Below, piece after piece: positions 32,368-39,650 of a stretch of DNA of 64,000 bases; positions within the stretch are counted from its first letter, which is position 1, and each line of letters starts with the position of its first letter. The notes beneath the pieces were generated by a model that was given only the letters and a program-made list of their open reading frames with translations, was not told where the DNA came from and searched no databases. Source of the stretch: Rheinheimera sp. 4Y26. GTDB taxonomy: Bacteria; Pseudomonadota; Gammaproteobacteria; Enterobacterales; Alteromonadaceae. Made by a program: the position numbers and the translations under genes. Location of the stretch: positions 124,001 through 188,000 of the forward strand of contig NZ_JAOBWS010000008.1 in the NCBI RefSeq assembly GCF_025245835.1. Reading direction: 5' to 3'.

Positions 32368-33561
32368 TCAGCGTGGCGGATTTTCAAAGGTGCCAAACAC
32401 CAGCGCCTTTTGTTGTTGCACCATGGTGCGGCCTTTGGCGTACACACTGTGAATTTGCAGATCGTCTTTGTGAATAAGCACTAAATCGGCCGCTTTGCCT
32501 ACCGCCAGCTCACCTTTGTGCTTCAGGCCAAGCACAGCAGCGGGGGAGGCGCTGATAGCGGCAATGGCATTGCTTAAACTCACCTGATAATCCAGAACTG
32601 CAGTTCTGGCGCTTTGGTACAAACTGCTGACTTTACCTACTTCCAGACCCAATAATTCTCCCTGGGGGTTAAACAGCGGTAAGCTGGCATTACCATCCGA
32701 GCTCAGTGTTAAGTTGGCAATTGGAATTTGCTGCTCCAGTGCCAGCGCAAGCGCTTGTGCTGCTGCCACTTCACCATGCTTTAAATCGTAAGCTGTGGTG
32801 CTGGTGGTAAAATCAATAACACCACCTGCTTTGGCAAAACGGATACCGGCGGCAAACACATCCTGATTGCGGTTGATATGGGTGGGGTAAAATTGCCGCA
32901 GTGATAACTCAGTGCCATTTACCGCCTGATGCAGCGGGTCCAGTAACGAAGCGCCCGAACCCACATGCACACTGACAATACCTGCTTTGCCGGCCAGCAT
33001 ACCGCCAACCCTGGCTTCGGCAGCCACTTTTCGCAGTTCAGTTAAAGTGGGCTGGGATGAACGGTGGTCGCTGATGGCAATTTCACCCACACCAATAAAC
33101 TTGTCGACAAGGATTAAATCATCGGTGACAGAGCCCATTAAAGTGCGGCAGGGGACTTGATAAGAGCCGGTGTGGCAATAAGTTGAAATACCTTCAGTTT
33201 CAAGCGCATGGGCCTTGGCCAGCAGATTGGTTAAGGTGCGGGTGGTGGCATCTGTACCCAGCACACCTATGGCCGTTGTCACGCCGCCTAAAGTGGCGTC
33301 TGTCAGCTGCATTTCCGGAGTGCGGCTGGCAAAACCACCTTCACCACCACCACCGATAAAGTGCACCAGCGAATCCACAAAACCCGGTGTTAAATAACAG
33401 TCACTGGCGTCAATTACTTCAATCGGCAAATTGTGCTGACCGATCAGCAAATCCTTGCCAATAGCGGCGATTTGGCCGCCGGCTATTAATAAATCCTGTT
33501 GACCCAGATCCATAGGCGCCAGCAGATGGGCATTTTTAAATAGTTTAATTGGGCTCATCAT
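32368..33561 (-). CDS. iadA: Isoaspartyl (beta-aspartyl) dipeptidase with altered metal motif
   Basis: Amidohydrolase-fold M38 peptidase that hydrolyses beta-aspartyl dipeptides. Length 397 and most family residues agree with E. coli IadA (390): bridging Glu160 (VGEIAISDHR), His199 (VSVHVGSG), His228 (THINRN), Asp289 (LSSDGN) and Tyr134 (TGSYQVP). However, the first metal motif reads GFVDSLVHFIGGGG: the first His of HxH is Leu65 (codon CTG, 33367-33369) and only His67 remains. Tandem ATGs at 33561/33558 follow AAGGAG. Operon with the YfcC transporter eight bases upstream, and divergent from a cyanophycinase, whose beta-Asp-Arg products are IadA-type substrates. Confidence 0.88.
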   Translation of the reverse strand: MMSPIKLFKNAHLLAPMDLGQQDLLIAGGQIAAIGKDLLIGQHNLPIEVIDASDCYLTPGFVDSLVHFIGGGGEGGFASRTPEMQLTDATLGGVTTAIGVLGTDATTRTLTNLLAKAHALETEGISTYCHTGSYQVPCRTLMGSVTDDLILVDKFIGVGEIAISDHRSSQPTLTELRKVAAEARVGGMLAGKAGIVSVHVGSGASLLDPLHQAVNGTELSLRQFYPTHINRNQDVFAAGIRFAKAGGVIDFTTSTTAYDLKHGEVAAAQALALALEQQIPIANLTLSSDGNASLPLFNPQGELLGLEVGKVSSLYQSARTAVLDYQVSLSNAIAAISASPAAVLGLKHKGELAVGKAADLVLIHKDDLQIHSVYAKGRTMVQQQKALVFGTFENPPR

Positions 33562-33568
33562 CTGCTCC

Positions 33569-35053
33569 TTATTGATAACCGATAGCTACAGCCACGAACA
33601 CCGACAGACTTGCCAGCACAAAGAGCCACAGCTGTAGTTTCCAGGCAAATTTTGCCCAGACCATCCAGTCGACCCGAACAACCCCCAGACAGCCAATAAG
33701 TGAGGCCGAGGTTGGCACTATGCAGTTGGTTAAACCATCACCCAGCTGAAAAGCCAGTACCGCAATTTGCCGGGATACACCGACTAAATCAGATAAAGGC
33801 GCTACCAGCGGCATGGTTAAAGCGGCCTGACCTGAGCCCGAGGTCACAAAAAAGTTAAACACCGATTGGAAAATCAGCATCAGCCAGGCGGCTATATAAG
33901 AAGACACACCGCTGAAACTCTCGCCAGCCAGGTGCAACAGGGTGTTAAGCACCGAAGGCTGAGTCGGGTCGTCGCCACCAAGCAGCAGTACTATGCCTTT
34001 GGCCATACCCACAATCATGGCGGCCGGCAAAAGTTCAGCGGCCCCTTGTTTAAAGGCGTCGGCTGCGCCGTTGATGGTCATTCTTTTGCCCAGAATGGCA
34101 ATAATGGCGGTGGCAATACCCAGGGCAAAAAACTGGGTAGCAATTTCAGGAATATAATAACCGCGCGCCACCACACCCCAGATCACCCAGCCGATACCAG
34201 CTACAAATACCGTTAAAATGGCGGCGTCCAGAGCACCAAAAGCAGATTGCTGTTGTTGTAGTTGTTGGCTTCTTAACTTTTCATCTGTGGCAAAACTCAG
34301 TGAAAGCTTTGGTTGTTGTTTGATTCTGGCGGCATAACGCATGGTGAAAATAATGCCAAACAGCGTAAATACCAGCCACAGCAGCATACGATAAGAAGCG
34401 CCGGACATCAGCGGCACACCGGCAATGCCCTGGGCTATGGCCACACTAAAAGGATTCATCCAGCTGGTGGCAAAACCTATCTGGGTGGCGATATAAGTTA
34501 CCAGCACTGTGGTTATGGCGTCATAACCTAAAGCCAGCATTAATGGCAGCAGCACGATACAAAAGGCGATGGCTTCTTCACCCATACCAAAGACGGCACC
34601 GCCGAGTGAAAACAGAGTAAACATCAGCGGAATAAATAAAAATTGCATGTTTTGTGTGCGTTTTATCAGCGCCAGAATACCGTTGTTCACAGCGCCTGAC
34701 TGCATAATGATGCCAAAAGCGCCGCCGGTTAGCAGAATAAAGGCAATAACACCAATGGCCGCCCCCATTTTGTCGCCTGACACCATGCCTTCAAAGGCGT
34801 AATTCAGAAAACCAGTTTCACCTTGTTCGGCAAAAAGCACCACACCCTGGTTGTTATCCTGGCTATAGCTGAAACTTTGTGGATCTATCCGTGCTTTTTG
34901 TAATTCACTCTGGGCATTGGTTTGGGCGGGCAATAACTTAAAACTACCGGCTGGGATCAGATGGGAGGCCAGTGCGGCCAGCACCATGACAAAAAACAAA
35001 ATTACAAAAGCATCAGGCATGCTGAGCGCTTTTGGCGGGGTATTGTGTTGCAT
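33569..35053 (-). CDS. yfcC: YfcC-family transporter (DcuC-like), predicted peptide/amino acid carrier
   Basis: Integral membrane protein of 494 residues with about 12 hydrophobic segments, belonging to the YfcC family within the C4-dicarboxylate/ion-transporter group. It shows FFVTSGSGQAALTMPLVAPL and the second half DGLTNCIVPTSASLIGCLGV, typical of this fold's paired substrate regions. The ATG at 35053 (MQHNTPPKALSMPDAF) precedes the first membrane segment; the frame is open to 35119. It is first in the operon with iadA, so the cargo may be beta-aspartyl dipeptides or aspartate/arginine. This is inference; characterised homologues handle various substrates. Confidence 0.8.
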   Translation of the reverse strand: MQHNTPPKALSMPDAFVILFFVMVLAALASHLIPAGSFKLLPAQTNAQSELQKARIDPQSFSYSQDNNQGVVLFAEQGETGFLNYAFEGMVSGDKMGAAIGVIAFILLTGGAFGIIMQSGAVNNGILALIKRTQNMQFLFIPLMFTLFSLGGAVFGMGEEAIAFCIVLLPLMLALGYDAITTVLVTYIATQIGFATSWMNPFSVAIAQGIAGVPLMSGASYRMLLWLVFTLFGIIFTMRYAARIKQQPKLSLSFATDEKLRSQQLQQQQSAFGALDAAILTVFVAGIGWVIWGVVARGYYIPEIATQFFALGIATAIIAILGKRMTINGAADAFKQGAAELLPAAMIVGMAKGIVLLLGGDDPTQPSVLNTLLHLAGESFSGVSSYIAAWLMLIFQSVFNFFVTSGSGQAALTMPLVAPLSDLVGVSRQIAVLAFQLGDGLTNCIVPTSASLIGCLGVVRVDWMVWAKFAWKLQLWLFVLASLSVFVAVAIGYQ

Positions 35054-35483
35054 AACAAAAATCTCTTTTCCAAAGTGTTGGACAGGCCAGATGTTCAGGC
35101 GCTGTGCTTGCTGATTCAAGCCTTTTGCTTGTTCAGGTGCATGACTTGAGTAAAAAGCTGCAGACAGATTGTTAACAAGTGTGGGCTACACATTGATGTG
35201 TACACAAAGTGCAGTGGACAAATGTAAAACAACAAGATGCCGCAGTCAGAATGACCGGGCAGGATCTACTCGTTAAACCACTCCGATAAGTAGTACGGCG
35301 AGTAATGATAGCTTGGCAATAACACGGCGTTTTTTAACATTGAACGACCAAATAACCAGCATGAAGGTTAGAAAAAGACTGTTTAGGATTATCTGTAATT
35401 GGCAAAGATGTCAATACCAGTTAATCTAACAGCCTTATTTTCATTCGTTTAGCGCGTTTAACTCATTAAAACAAGAAGAGACT
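35054..35483. other. Divergent control region of the cyanophycin locus
   Basis: A 430-base non-coding region between the yfcC-iadA operon and the cyanophycinase gene. It holds a 16-base inverted repeat (35187-35202) and a 10-base palindrome TTGTTAACAA (35169-35178), both within 150 bases of the yfcC start. The right half is A+T-rich and should contain the cyanophycinase promoter; no single best match stands out. Confidence 0.5.
35187..35202. promoter_or_regulatory. Inverted repeat, candidate operator
   Basis: TACACAT-TG-ATGTGTA: seven-base arms pair perfectly around two central bases. Length and placement between divergent genes fit a dimeric regulator site. No regulator gene is adjacent. 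Confidence 0.45.
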
Positions 35484-37322
35484 ATGAAATTAGCCCACTG
35501 TTGCTGGCCAGTTCTGGCATCAATGTTACCGCTGTTATCGGTCCAGGCCGCAGATATAAAATCCGGCTCATCAACCAGCAAAGCGATGCCATCTTATTCG
35601 ATGATGTTGATAGGTGGCGGCGCTTCGGTTTGTTCTTCAACAGAAAAATCACAATGTGATGCAACAGCAAGTTTCAGCGAGAATGCAAAGACCGGTGCGC
35701 TTTTTAGTGTGCAGGCAAAATACATCGACAATATTGTCAACAACGAATTCTGGCCAGCTGCACGTAAAACAACAGCACAGCAGGTTGGTGCTTTGTTAAA
35801 ACATTTACAGAACAAGCTGGCTGGCAGTGAAGTGACTTCGCGTGAACTTAGCAGGTTGTGGCGCTCAAGCGAAGCTGAACATAACGGCAGCTGGGTGTCG
35901 GGACGTGAGCTTTATAGCAGCCTGAGTGAAGCGGAACGCAATTTTGTGTTTGACCAACTCGAAGTTGAAGTCAGTGAAAGAACTTCAGCGGCAAATCGCA
36001 AAAAAGAACAGGTATTGCCGCAAAACAGCAAAGACACTATTTCACTGGGGCTATACCAGCAATTTGTCAGTCTTGCCACCGAAGTCAGTGGAAAAAGAGC
36101 GCCGAGAATTCTGGTCGTGACAGCTTCAGGACGCGACCCTTTTGCGGCCGTTGATTATTACGTAGATTTGTTTAAAAAACTGGGCGCAGATGCCAGCTGG
36201 TTACCGGTGAATGCCGCTTATCAGGCCGCACAGAGAGATAGTGCAGGTCGTGCTGTTGGTTGTCAGAATTATCTGCAACATTTAGTGCAGGAGCAGGGCA
36301 GTTTTCAGCGTGGGCGGGTTTATCCTGACTTGCTGGCTGAGCAAAAAGATTTTTGTAACAAGGGGTCAGATCAGGCGTTGGAGATGATTCGCCGTGCTGA
36401 TGCCATTTTCTTTAATGGTGGTGATCAAAGCCTGACCTATAAAGCCTTTAAACAACCCGATGGCTCAGACAGCAAAGAGCTGGCGCAAATCCGCACTATG
36501 CTCGGTAAAGGTGAGCTGGTACTGGCCGGCACCAGTGCAGGCACTGCTGTAATGTCCGGTGGCAGTTATTTAGGTGCTGATACTGTAATGATCAGCAACG
36601 GCCAGAGCCCACAAGCTATTTATCAGGGCGCTTTTGCCGCCAAAGCCCCGTCACCTGGTTGTGAAAACAACAACAGCTGTGGCACAGGTATGGACGAAAA
36701 TAGCCTGACTTATCAGGCAAATGGTGGCCTGGGTTTATTCCCCTGGGGTGTGCTGGATACACATTTTTCCGAGCGTGGTCGTCAGGGCCGGCTGTTAACT
36801 TTGGTCGCACAAAGCAAAAACACTTTTGGTTTTGGTGTGGACGAAGCTACAGCGCTGCTGGTGGGTTTTGATAAGAAAAACCCTGAGTTTATCCGGTTTT
36901 CTGTTAGTGGTGCTGAAGGTGTGTATGTGGCACAACGTGTTGCAGAAACCACTGTAGAGCCGTCGCTTATTATGGCGATGCAAAGCCATTATTTTACCAA
37001 TGGCGACAGCTTTAGTTTGCAGCAGGGTCAATTGTTGGCCAGTTTTGCCGACTGGAAATATGCGCCAAGCACCACCAGCAGTCCCTTGTTAACGTCCGGC
37101 AATTTGTTTAGCGGTGATAACTTCCGTCAGCTCGCTAACTTAATGTGTAATAACCAGAGTCGCACTGCGGATGGCAGTTTTAGTGTAGCGGGCAAAGAGT
37201 TTAAATTGCAGCTGCGCCGTGATGCCCAGTCGGCAGCCAGATCGGGTCAGTACCATGTGGGCAGTATCAATAAAAACTACTGCTCCTATCGTAATATACA
37301 GGTGTCGGTCGCTGGCAATTAA
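35484..37322 (+). CDS. Exported cyanophycinase (peptidase family S51)
   Basis: Serine exopeptidase that releases beta-Asp-Arg dipeptides from cyanophycin. A signal peptide (MKLAHCCWPVLASMLPLL, cleavage after VQA) shows export, unlike the cytoplasmic CphB of cyanobacteria. The triad fits S51: Ser351 in GTSAGTAVMSG, His427 in LDTHFSERGRQGRL and Glu454 in GVDEATALL; NGGDQ at 311-315 is also conserved. At 612 residues it is larger than usual, with an inserted region at about 50-200 and a C-terminal extension of about 150 residues. AAGAAGAGA precedes the ATG. Transcribed away from yfcC-iadA; no cyanophycin synthetase (cphA) lies in the window, which favours scavenging over storage. Confidence 0.88.
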   Translation: MKLAHCCWPVLASMLPLLSVQAADIKSGSSTSKAMPSYSMMLIGGGASVCSSTEKSQCDATASFSENAKTGALFSVQAKYIDNIVNNEFWPAARKTTAQQVGALLKHLQNKLAGSEVTSRELSRLWRSSEAEHNGSWVSGRELYSSLSEAERNFVFDQLEVEVSERTSAANRKKEQVLPQNSKDTISLGLYQQFVSLATEVSGKRAPRILVVTASGRDPFAAVDYYVDLFKKLGADASWLPVNAAYQAAQRDSAGRAVGCQNYLQHLVQEQGSFQRGRVYPDLLAEQKDFCNKGSDQALEMIRRADAIFFNGGDQSLTYKAFKQPDGSDSKELAQIRTMLGKGELVLAGTSAGTAVMSGGSYLGADTVMISNGQSPQAIYQGAFAAKAPSPGCENNNSCGTGMDENSLTYQANGGLGLFPWGVLDTHFSERGRQGRLLTLVAQSKNTFGFGVDEATALLVGFDKKNPEFIRFSVSGAEGVYVAQRVAETTVEPSLIMAMQSHYFTNGDSFSLQQGQLLASFADWKYAPSTTSSPLLTSGNLFSGDNFRQLANLMCNNQSRTADGSFSVAGKEFKLQLRRDAQSAARSGQYHVGSINKNYCSYRNIQVSVAGN

Positions 37323-37340: not shown

Positions 37341-39650
37341 GTGCAGAGCTTGAGTCAATATCCGGTCAAATCCTGGGTAAGACGTCTGGCCGCAGTGTTA
37401 AAACTGTGGGGGTGGCTGCAGCTTGCCAGCCTCACAGTGTTATTTATTCTGGTCAGCAGCGCTTTGCTGGCGCTGGCGGTCAGTTTAATTCTGCACAATC
37501 AGGTGCGCTGGGACATGGTCGCCGGCGCCTTGTTATTCGCTTTTGTCGCAGCGCCGGTTTTTGTCAGCCTGCTGCTGTATCTGGTACGTCATCTTGACGC
37601 CGCGTTATTTTATTTAAAAGACTCCGCCCGCCAGGAAACCCTGCTCAATGAAAACCTGCAGGAAAATATCCGCCAGCTGAACTTTGAAATTGAAGAGCGC
37701 AAAAAAGCTTTCCAGGCCAAACGCCGGGCCATTGATGAGCTGCGTAAAGAAATTTCCGAACGGAAAAAAACTCAGCTGGAACTGGAAGAGCAAAGTTTGT
37801 TGATGCGCTCTATCGTCGACAGTTCGCCCGATTTATTTTATTACCGCGATGAAACCGGCCGTTTTGCCAGCTGCAATAAAATGTTTGAGCAGCTGATTGG
37901 TAAAAGTGCCAGTGAACTGATTGGCCATTATCCGCTGGAAATTTATTCATCAGATATGGCGCCAGCCGCCATTCTGACCGACCACGAAGTGTCGGTAAAT
38001 CAGGCGGAACTGACGCTTGATGTGGAATACACCACACCACAAGGCCAGGTGATGTGGTTTGAAATGCGTAAAGTACCGTTTTTTGACCGCCAGGGCCGTT
38101 ATATTGGTTTACTCGGTTTTGGCCGTGACATTACCAGCCGTAAACTGGCCGAGCAGGCGCTGGAGCGGGCTTATCAGGACAAAGGTAAATTTATTGCCAC
38201 TTTAAGCCATGAGCTACGCACGCCACTGAACGGTATTGTCGGTTTAACCCGGCGTTTGCTGGAAACCGAACTGGCGCCAGAGCAACGCAGCTGGGCCAAT
38301 ACCATTTTCAGCAGCGCTGAAACTTTGGGTAATATTTTTAACGATATTATCGATTTAGATAAAATTGACCGGCAAGATCTCGATATTGTTTATCAAAGTG
38401 TGAAGCTTGATCAGTTTATCGGTGATATTGCCAACTTCGCCGAGCTGATTTGCCAGCAAAAAGGCCTGAAGTTTAGCGTGCAGCGGGTGGGCGAGCTTAG
38501 CTGTTTTGTCAAACTGGACCCAACCCGGGTGCGCCAGGTGTTGTGGAATTTAATTAATAACGCTGTGAAATTTACCGCCAAAGGTGAAGTCCGGCTTTAT
38601 TGTGAATTTAGTCAGGCTTCGGGCGCCAATGAGCTGATTTTTATTGTCAGCGACACCGGCATTGGCATAGCGCCACAAGAACAGCAGCGCATTTTTGATA
38701 TGTATTACAAATCAAGCGATGGCCGCCGTTTAAGTATTGTTGGCTCCGGCATTGGTTTGTCGGTGTCCAAAGCGCTGTCAGAAGCCATGGGCGGTCGAAT
38801 CAGTTTGCAAAGCCAGCTCAATCAGGGCAGCAGTTTTACCGTACATCTGCCCACCGAAGTGCTGGCCGAGCCTGAGTTGTTAGCGGCAGTACGTTGCCCC
38901 AGCCTGACAGTTCTTTTGGTGGAGGATGTGCCACTCAATGCTGAAATAGCGATAAATCTGCTGGAGCAGCGCGGCCATACCGTGGTGCATGCCGAAACAG
39001 GCGAAGATGCGTTAGCTTTGCTGGAAACTGAAGACGACATTGATTTAGTGCTGCTGGATATGCAATTGCCGGATATGACCGGCGATCAGATAGCCAGAGC
39101 CATGAAACTGGACCCAAGACTTTCGCAAATTCCAATTGTGGTATTAAGCGCCAATGTGCGTAAAGCCGAGCAGCAGCTCGAAGGCATTCAGATAGACGGC
39201 GCTCTGGCTAAACCTATTAATACCGCCAATCTGGACCAGCTGTTGGCGCAATTATTTTCACCAAGTTCAGTGCGAAGTTCGACACTTGCGCAACCGGAAA
39301 AACAGCAGGACACAGTGCTGGATTTAGGCACATTGCAGGATTATCTGCAGTCGCTTGGTAAAAAGTCGGTGAACCGCAGTATTCAGCTATTTGAGCAGCT
39401 GCTGCCGGGTTATATCAACAAAATGCTGGAAGCGGCCACGCAGCGTGAGCTGGAAGAATTTCATGAAGCTGCGCATAAACTTAAAGGCGCTGCGGCTTCG
39501 GTTGGCTTGTTATGGGTGCAGCAGCAGGCCAAGTTGTTAGAGCAGGAAGAAACACCCAACTGGCAGACGATGGAGCGGCAGTTAATAGAGTATCACTTAA
39601 CAATAGAGCGGCATCTGGCTGCGCTGCATGAGTTTGTGGAGCAGTATTAA
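37341..39650 (+). CDS. arcB: Hybrid sensor kinase ArcB
   Basis: Membrane sensor of respiratory state and phosphodonor to ArcA. Order of parts: two membrane helices (about 27-51, 61-84), coiled coil (95-150), PAS (about 155-270), HisKA with His290 (TLSHELRTPLNG), ATPase (N and G boxes to about 505), receiver with Asp573 (VLLDMQLPDMTG) and Hpt with His712 (AAHKLKGAAASVG). E. coli ArcB has H292, D576 and H717 in the same order, and 778 residues against 769 here. GTG at 37341 gives the longest frame; TTG at 37350, eight bases after AGAGG, is equally possible. It converges with arcA. Confidence 0.93.
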   Translation: MQSLSQYPVKSWVRRLAAVLKLWGWLQLASLTVLFILVSSALLALAVSLILHNQVRWDMVAGALLFAFVAAPVFVSLLLYLVRHLDAALFYLKDSARQETLLNENLQENIRQLNFEIEERKKAFQAKRRAIDELRKEISERKKTQLELEEQSLLMRSIVDSSPDLFYYRDETGRFASCNKMFEQLIGKSASELIGHYPLEIYSSDMAPAAILTDHEVSVNQAELTLDVEYTTPQGQVMWFEMRKVPFFDRQGRYIGLLGFGRDITSRKLAEQALERAYQDKGKFIATLSHELRTPLNGIVGLTRRLLETELAPEQRSWANTIFSSAETLGNIFNDIIDLDKIDRQDLDIVYQSVKLDQFIGDIANFAELICQQKGLKFSVQRVGELSCFVKLDPTRVRQVLWNLINNAVKFTAKGEVRLYCEFSQASGANELIFIVSDTGIGIAPQEQQRIFDMYYKSSDGRRLSIVGSGIGLSVSKALSEAMGGRISLQSQLNQGSSFTVHLPTEVLAEPELLAAVRCPSLTVLLVEDVPLNAEIAINLLEQRGHTVVHAETGEDALALLETEDDIDLVLLDMQLPDMTGDQIARAMKLDPRLSQIPIVVLSANVRKAEQQLEGIQIDGALAKPINTANLDQLLAQLFSPSSVRSSTLAQPEKQQDTVLDLGTLQDYLQSLGKKSVNRSIQLFEQLLPGYINKMLEAATQRELEEFHEAAHKLKGAAASVGLLWVQQQAKLLEQEETPNWQTMERQLIEYHLTIERHLAALHEFVEQY

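Follow-up and report, generated by a model that had tools for sequence, protein, structure and literature searches.

Cyanobacteria store nitrogen in dense form as the polymer cyanophycin. Bacteria that consume it are known among some isolates and communities (PMC10206079), and the closest described genetic system is the cyanophycin utilization locus of Ben Hania (2017) in strain L21-Spi-D4, which, as quoted in PMC10206079, comprises genes for a cyanophycinase and a transporter together with iadA, encoding an isoaspartyl dipeptidase. According to the same source, Sharon and Schmeing listed 52 genomes that have a cyanophycinase and an isoaspartyl dipeptidase and no synthetase gene cphA1, with the genes clustered in 45 of them; amino acid transporters are often found alongside such clusters (PMC10206079). 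Here we describe a locus of this kind in a 64,000-nucleotide stretch of Rheinheimera sp. 4Y26 (assembly GCF_025245835.1, contig NZ_JAOBWS010000008.1, positions 124,001 to 188,000; hereafter the window), in which the gene of a long S51 peptidase is divergent from a yfcC-iadA gene pair. We read the locus as serving to scavenge cyanophycin or fragments of it, with a probability of about 0.68: the S51 peptidase would depolymerise outside, YfcC would import, and IadA would hydrolyse. New here is a clade of dipeptidases with a fixed loss of a metal ligand (Leu-x-His, LxH, in place of His-x-His, HxH), tied to import genes.

In the proposed route, the exported S51 peptidase would release beta-Asp-Arg or beta-Asp-Lys from cyanophycin outside the cytoplasm, and a TonB receptor, where present, may carry oligomers into the periplasm. 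YfcC would bring the dipeptides across the inner membrane, and cytoplasmic IadA would then split them, giving Asp and Arg. This pathway is likely right in outline and is known in kind; what we infer is that the S51 peptidase is exported and acts on the polymer, what YfcC transports and in which direction, and that the LxH IadA is active. The initial annotation of the window had already proposed such an outside-to-inside route. As a functional unit it is upheld by the conserved neighbours, the kept catalytic triad of the S51 peptidase, the lack of a recognised synthetase, and the presence in some of these genomes of a storage cluster separate from the unit; as an idea it was already in print (PMC10206079), and the IadA is not a standard one. 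The same annotation had noted that the window has no cphA, which is correct and extends to the whole genome (4.08 Mb, listed as 100% complete), where searches with the profiles TIGR02068 (best match 87.5 of 850 bits) and PF18921 (no match) did not recognise cphA. It had also proposed co-occurrence of the S51, YfcC and IadA genes in related genomes as a check, and we found this far above chance among 147 genomes of the family.

In these genomes, we kept S51 matches above 120 bits (61 genomes; 77 of the 147 if weaker matches are included), yfcC matches above 300 bits, which excludes paralogs of ∼36% identity, and IadA matches above 270 bits plus the partial one of G073, which excludes other amidohydrolases. 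The LxH iadA occupies 48 places in 46 genomes; yfcC lies less than 200 bp away in 46 of the 48 and a long S51 gene within 8 kb in 45, whereas cphA is not found within 8 kb of any. Of the 49 places with the yfcC ortholog, 46 have the LxH iadA beside it and 47 a long S51 gene. Long S51 genes are found at 70 places in the 61 genomes, 45 of them with iadA, 47 with yfcC and 22 alone. By genome, 43 have both S51 and the LxH iadA, 18 only S51 and three only iadA, and the remaining 83 lack both (Fisher p 4e-19, uncorrected for relatedness). These counts reject a chance origin of the neighbourhood. Moreover, genomes without one part of the cluster carry a putative substitute. In particular, three clusters of S51, TonB receptor and yfcC genes without iadA (G011, G060, G093) are accompanied by an HxH iadA elsewhere in all three genomes, and two clusters without a long S51 gene (G083, G137) by another S51 above the TIGR02069 cut-off in both, although both sets are small.

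A second, diverged unit (L076, L088, L089, L222) was also observed, comprised of an LxH iadA with the motif DSLAH, an S51 gene and a gene for another large protein, with yfcC in three of the four; in G045 and G111 it exists besides a first copy elsewhere. In G146, a 65-residue remnant of the iadA end (L096, G146:C26:6640-6834) lies beside an intact lone S51 gene, a possible recent operon loss.

The two forms of IadA have different neighbours. In the 147 genomes, the HxH iadA stands beside cphA at 16 of 18 places. Among all 28 HxH loci read, 20 have cphA, 20 have the short cphB, 22 have one or both, and none has yfcC or a long S51 gene, whereas of the 79 LxH loci 64 have yfcC, 54 a long S51 gene, and none cphA or a short cphB. 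Both forms occur together in G004, G075 and G106, and some genomes that carry the scavenging-type unit have a distinct cphA-cphB-iadA storage cluster as well. Neither yfcC nor S51 was present in 14 LxH loci; 10 of these have an ATP-binding cassette (ABC) transporter of the Lys/Arg/Orn/His type, which occurs in none of the 28 HxH loci. Its binding proteins, where scanned, are nearest to the lysine/arginine/ornithine subfamily, some falling just below the subfamily cut-off. G1024, from another order, also has the ABC-iadA arrangement. The LxH IadA is thus accompanied by importers of two unrelated families, each with an annotation for basic amino acids, which for YfcC is a putative one. The loci that combine an LxH iadA with such an ABC transporter are L231, L233, L236-L238, L245, L247-L250 and L281. 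A match to the cyanophycinase profile TIGR02069 is absent in the eight searched genomes of family f189 and in G1024, and four genomes of f205 have only weak ones (<26 bits), so that genomes of the ABC type would live on dipeptides freed by others; G515 and G539 have a TIGR02069 match over the cut-off.

The IadA of the window scores 493.9 bits with TIGR01975 (cut-off 331.25). It has the binuclear ligand set of the family (HxH, Glu/Lys, His, His, Asp) except for the first His, which is Leu65 and aligns with the first His of the metal-binding HxH in solved IadAs. In the 107 relatives where the motif could be read, it was Leu-x-His in 79 and His-x-His in 28, and nothing else. The 79 include L003, nearly identical to the window, and not the window itself; L003 was omitted from the tree and from the S51 counts. 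The IadA of G048 is cut off before the motif, and those of G575 and G405, hidden by an overlapping frame, are missing from the motif and context counts; the G405 protein, read separately, is HxH and has Glu at 264. With Leu in all 79 relatives, a sequencing error at Leu65 is rejected. Glu74, Tyr134, His199, His228, Arg231 and Asp289 are invariant in all 79 LxH and all 28 HxH proteins, and position 160 is Glu in all 79 LxH and in 26 HxH proteins, the remaining two having Lys. In a maximum-likelihood tree of 101 proteins, unrooted and with some long rows, one branch, supported at 100/96 and recovered in 100% of 200 bootstrap trees, sets the 73 LxH proteins apart; by this tree the LxH IadAs form one clade. 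The columns separating the two forms are 65, 81, 89, 133, 223, 254, 263, 264, 292, 293 and 332. Glu264 is present in 73/73 LxH and 3/28 HxH proteins, as well as in that of G405, and hence is not unique to the clade; judged by eye on the alignment, it falls in a loop next to the opening that, as described in PMC10206079, accommodates the non-Asp portion of the substrate.

Confinement of LxH to the order of the window was considered and rejected, as G1024 has one further LxH IadA. Nor is LxH general outside the order in our samples: the six strong matches of the class sample from outside the order are all HxH, as are the five new IadAs of the phylum sample other than that of G1024, one of which (G1002) belongs to the order.

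In solved IadAs two zinc ions are bound. The lost His is a named zinc ligand in two structural papers, being H61 in FiBAP, where H61, H63, E156 and D285 are given for Zn2 (PMC7774594), and H64 in LmIadA, where the ligands are H64, H66, H198, H227 and E159 (PMC10206079). A precedent comes from NagA, which occurs as a binuclear HXH enzyme and as a mononuclear QXN one; mutated to QXN, a mycobacterial NagA is active with a 7-fold higher Michaelis constant, and an AXA mutant has no activity (PMC6016474). By analogy, Leu65 would most likely alter or remove the alpha metal site, while the beta metal would stay, held by Glu160, His199 and His228. One could instead suppose that the LxH IadA is degenerate or repurposed and does not cleave beta-aspartyl dipeptides, another peptidase finishing the work, and both the loss of a named ligand and the inactive AXA mutant of the same motif speak for this. 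We consider it improbable: the Leu is fixed and seven other catalytic residues are invariant in 79/79, which makes decay an unlikely cause, and the three clusters without iadA have an HxH iadA elsewhere, as if the two forms replaced each other. Tentatively, and with somewhat less than even confidence, we propose that the LxH enzymes make up a third class of IadA by metal site, working with a single metal or a remodelled alpha site, and that they diverged from the IadAs of storage and repair to serve imported basic beta-aspartyl dipeptides. In this proposal, the invariant Glu264 would bind the side chain of Arg or Lys, giving a specificity that HxH IadAs lack, and the clade would travel with importers, YfcC (often with a TonB receptor) in one branch and the Lys/Arg/Orn-type ABC transporter in another. 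Among the papers listed in a literature search, from which subscription journals were mostly absent, we saw no IadA without HxH in work on binuclear and mononuclear isoaspartyl dipeptidases, and no study of cyanophycin scavenging in Rheinheimera.

The long S51 protein belongs to its family by the Ser-His-Glu triad with the GGDQ and GTSAG motifs and by its match to Pfam PF03575 (27.7 bits, cut-off 23.9). The motifs read GGDQ, GTSAGTAVMS, DTHFSERGRQGRL and VDEAT, and the pocket residues are Gln315, Asp425, Arg431, Arg433 and Arg436. The N-terminus, read by eye, is hydrophobic, and the protein is probably exported. S51 proteins of 98% and 84% identity come from Rheinheimera metagenome-assembled genomes, the only two close relatives found among the contigs. 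Six cysteines are conserved in 50/50 cluster copies, which fits an exported protein with disulphides, and the pocket Gln, Asp and three Arg common to CphB are likewise kept in 50/50. The triad and the Gln of GGDQ are intact in all 56 long S51 copies beside yfcC or iadA, while of 22 lone copies seven have the triad and six both (triad kept, clustered versus lone: Fisher p 4e-11, relatedness not corrected). The cysteine and pocket counts follow a looser rule giving 50 cluster and 11 lone copies, and the triad counts a stricter one giving 56 and 22; the latter cover 47 of the 48 non-lone and all 22 lone places in the family, plus eight copies from the order and that of L004, the S51 of G094 (243 aa) being left out as short. 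The lone copies are still open frames of 492-665 aa. That the long S51 protein is always active was rejected, as 15 of the 22 stand-alone copies have lost the triad.

In many relatives a large gene, mostly of 860-1030 codons, lies between yfcC and the S51 gene. Those of L073 and L075 encode TonB receptors by their matches to PF00593 and PF07715, and others resemble TonB receptors by BLAST (Basic Local Alignment Search Tool), some at only about 30% identity; a second type of large protein (L076) has CarboxypepD_reg as its sole domain match. By BLAST, a receptor-like or L076-type protein is found in 55 of the 79 LxH loci, in 46 of them together with both yfcC and an S51 gene. A promoter scan gave 2 sites versus 2.9 expected.

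YfcC of the window scores 715.3 bits with NF008611 (cut-off 500). Its start is likely the ATG at 35053, favoured by the 494-aa reading in L004, rather than the TTG at 35119, where the mechanical open reading frame begins. The substrate of its family is itself putative; PMC11477304 calls YfcC uncharacterised in function and also mentions a lysine riboswitch ahead of yfcC in Clostridioides difficile. YfcC is a candidate carrier of beta-Asp dipeptides.

Several observations weigh against cyanophycin scavenging by this locus. The S51 protein scores 100.2 bits with TIGR02069, under the cyanophycinase cut-off of 126.6, and has Thr426 where CphB has Gln in 19 of 20 cases; going by its sequence, it is classed here as cyanophycinase-like only. 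The genome of the window has a second S51 protein of exported look (L255 1504-2895, contig C11 of G000), 463 aa long, with 65 bits for TIGR02069 and a mass of 48.5 kDa. The 49-kDa secreted S51 (cyanophycinase) reported from the exoproteome of a relative in the Arsukibacterium study (PMC4767292) was considered as the counterpart of the window's S51 and rejected, since the latter has 66.1 kDa; in size it matches the second S51 protein. Among the 147 genomes, 15 have a long S51 gene without the yfcC ortholog and without the LxH iadA, and of the 14 LxH loci that lack yfcC and S51, four (G539, G515, G560, G599) also have no such ABC transporter in the stretch read. The window itself has no TonB receptor gene, similar to the first locus of G111, and no close copy of the receptor was found in the rest of the window's genome (best piece 48% over 228 residues); the unit thus seems to be present here in reduced form. 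For the dipeptidase, a passage of PMC5517026 gives the ZN1 ligands of CpsIadA as His73, Glu166 and Asp293, a list without the first His, so the loss of this residue may change little. Two structure predictions were of very low confidence (mean predicted local distance difference test scores 40.5 and 30.4).

Part of this evidence would agree with a unit that scavenges beta-aspartyl peptides generally, for example from aged protein of detritus, with cyanophycin as one substrate or none. Characterised IadAs are promiscuous, including one from a cphA cluster (PMC10206079), and besides the low score and Thr426, the long form is a candidate cyanophycinase by sequence only. Still, we regard this explanation as unlikely, given that the pocket residues common to CphB are kept in every cluster S51 copy and that partner transporters of two unrelated lineages are annotated for basic amino acids, which fits beta-Asp-Arg and beta-Asp-Lys.

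The layout of the locus is given in Table 1. The initial annotation had placed the three genes at 32368-37322 with S51 divergent from yfcC-iadA and had claimed a complete triad. Gene calls and family profiles agree with the former, and alignment with solved cyanophycinases and with the short CphB of relatives confirms the latter. Its cyanophycinase holds as a member of the S51 family by PF03575 and not as the TIGR02069 equivalog; similarly, its IadA belongs to the TIGR01975 family and is not the standard enzyme, the first metal-ligand His being replaced. It had overlooked Leu65 and the proximity of the S51 end to the arcB-like gene.

Table 1. Features of the locus; positions are counted from the first letter of the window.
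Feature	Position	Strand	Remarks
S51 peptidase, long, probably exported, cyanophycinase-like	35484..37322	+	612 aa, 66.1 kDa; triad Ser351-His427-Glu454
YfcC-type transporter, DcuC family	33569..35053	-	494 aa from ATG at 35053
Isoaspartyl dipeptidase, LxH clade	32368..33561	-	397 aa; follows yfcC in the gene pair
Codons Asp63-Ser64-Leu65-Val66-His67 of IadA	33361..33375	-	Leu65 replaces the first metal-ligand His
Upstream region common to the divergent genes	35054..35483	.	TonB receptor gene between yfcC and S51 in many relatives
arcB-like gene	37341-39650	+ (same strand as S51)	starts 18 bases after the S51 end

The genes yfcC and iadA are separated by 7 bases on the same strand. Beyond the arcB-like gene, arcA is encoded on the opposite strand. 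With 806 bits the ArcB-like kinase falls just below the ArcB cut-off of 838, and ArcA is above its own cut-off. On the far side of iadA are folE2 and what we take, by resemblance, to be a gltB-like gene. The short distance between the S51 and arcB-like genes could mean that S51 belongs functionally with arcB, its adjacency to yfcC-iadA being a by-product of a shared gltB-arcB site. Lone S51 genes beside arcB indeed persist at full length with a broken triad in G017, G022, G097 and G020 (loci L094, L093, L256 and L095), perhaps as pseudoenzymes or as frames kept for arcB transcription. We nevertheless find this very improbable: within the fetched stretches a close arcB (>60% identity) accompanies only 10 of the 79 LxH loci, the other S51-bearing LxH loci have S51 with yfcC and mostly a TonB receptor at other sites, and it is the clustered S51 copies, all 56 of them, that have kept the triad.

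If the locus serves to scavenge cyanophycin, many genomes of the family and the order are marked by the cluster as likely cyanophycin eaters, and it may be used as a gene signature. It also offers a substrate hypothesis for YfcC. For enzymology, the LxH IadA raises the question of how it functions after the loss of a metal ligand, and whether specificity for beta-Asp-Arg was gained; as G004, G075 and G106 carry both forms, they can be compared within one organism.

With regard to known systems, the window shares with the published cyanophycin utilization locus the clustering of a cyanophycinase-like gene, an isoaspartyl dipeptidase gene and a transporter gene, the absence of a recognised synthetase from the genome, and the reading as scavenging of polymer from outside (PMC10206079), with the reservation that its S51 protein is below the cyanophycinase cut-off and its IadA is a variant. 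By contrast, the window belongs to Gammaproteobacteria and the published locus to Bacteroidetes (PMC10206079), and compared with that locus, as known from quotation, the long S51, YfcC, the LxH IadA and, in relatives, the TonB receptor are features of the window type. Cyanophycin has been proposed as a TonB receptor substrate from a gene neighbourhood in Citromicrobium sp. JLT1363 (PMC3400609); that case is from another lineage and, in the portion of the paper available to us, comes with no mention of iadA or yfcC, and the window itself lacks the receptor. A secreted cyanophycinase has been reported in Pseudoalteromonas tunicata, and CphB in a Thalassotalea strain (PMC2536512, PMC7564069). The CphA1-CphB-IadA storage cluster, found in relatives within the family and in Leucothrix mucor (PMC10206079), also joins an S51 peptidase to an M38 isoaspartyl dipeptidase; unlike the window, it has a short CphB of ∼275 aa, a synthetase and an IadA with intact HxH, and the stretches read contain neither yfcC nor a long S51 gene.

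IadAs have been sorted into two types by Glu or Lys (PMC5517026). Similar to the Type I enzymes CpsIadA (5XGW), FiBAP (7CF6) and LmIadA, the LxH clade has Glu rather than a carbamylated Lys as the bridging ligand, together with the other catalytic residues checked, while Leu in place of the first ligand His and the clade marks Ser254, Glu264 and Ala292 set it apart. NagA belongs to the same amidohydrolase superfamily and is a precedent for activity that survives the loss of the HxH pair and of one metal, although it acts on another substrate, and its QXN form changes both His, whereas in the LxH IadA only the first is changed.

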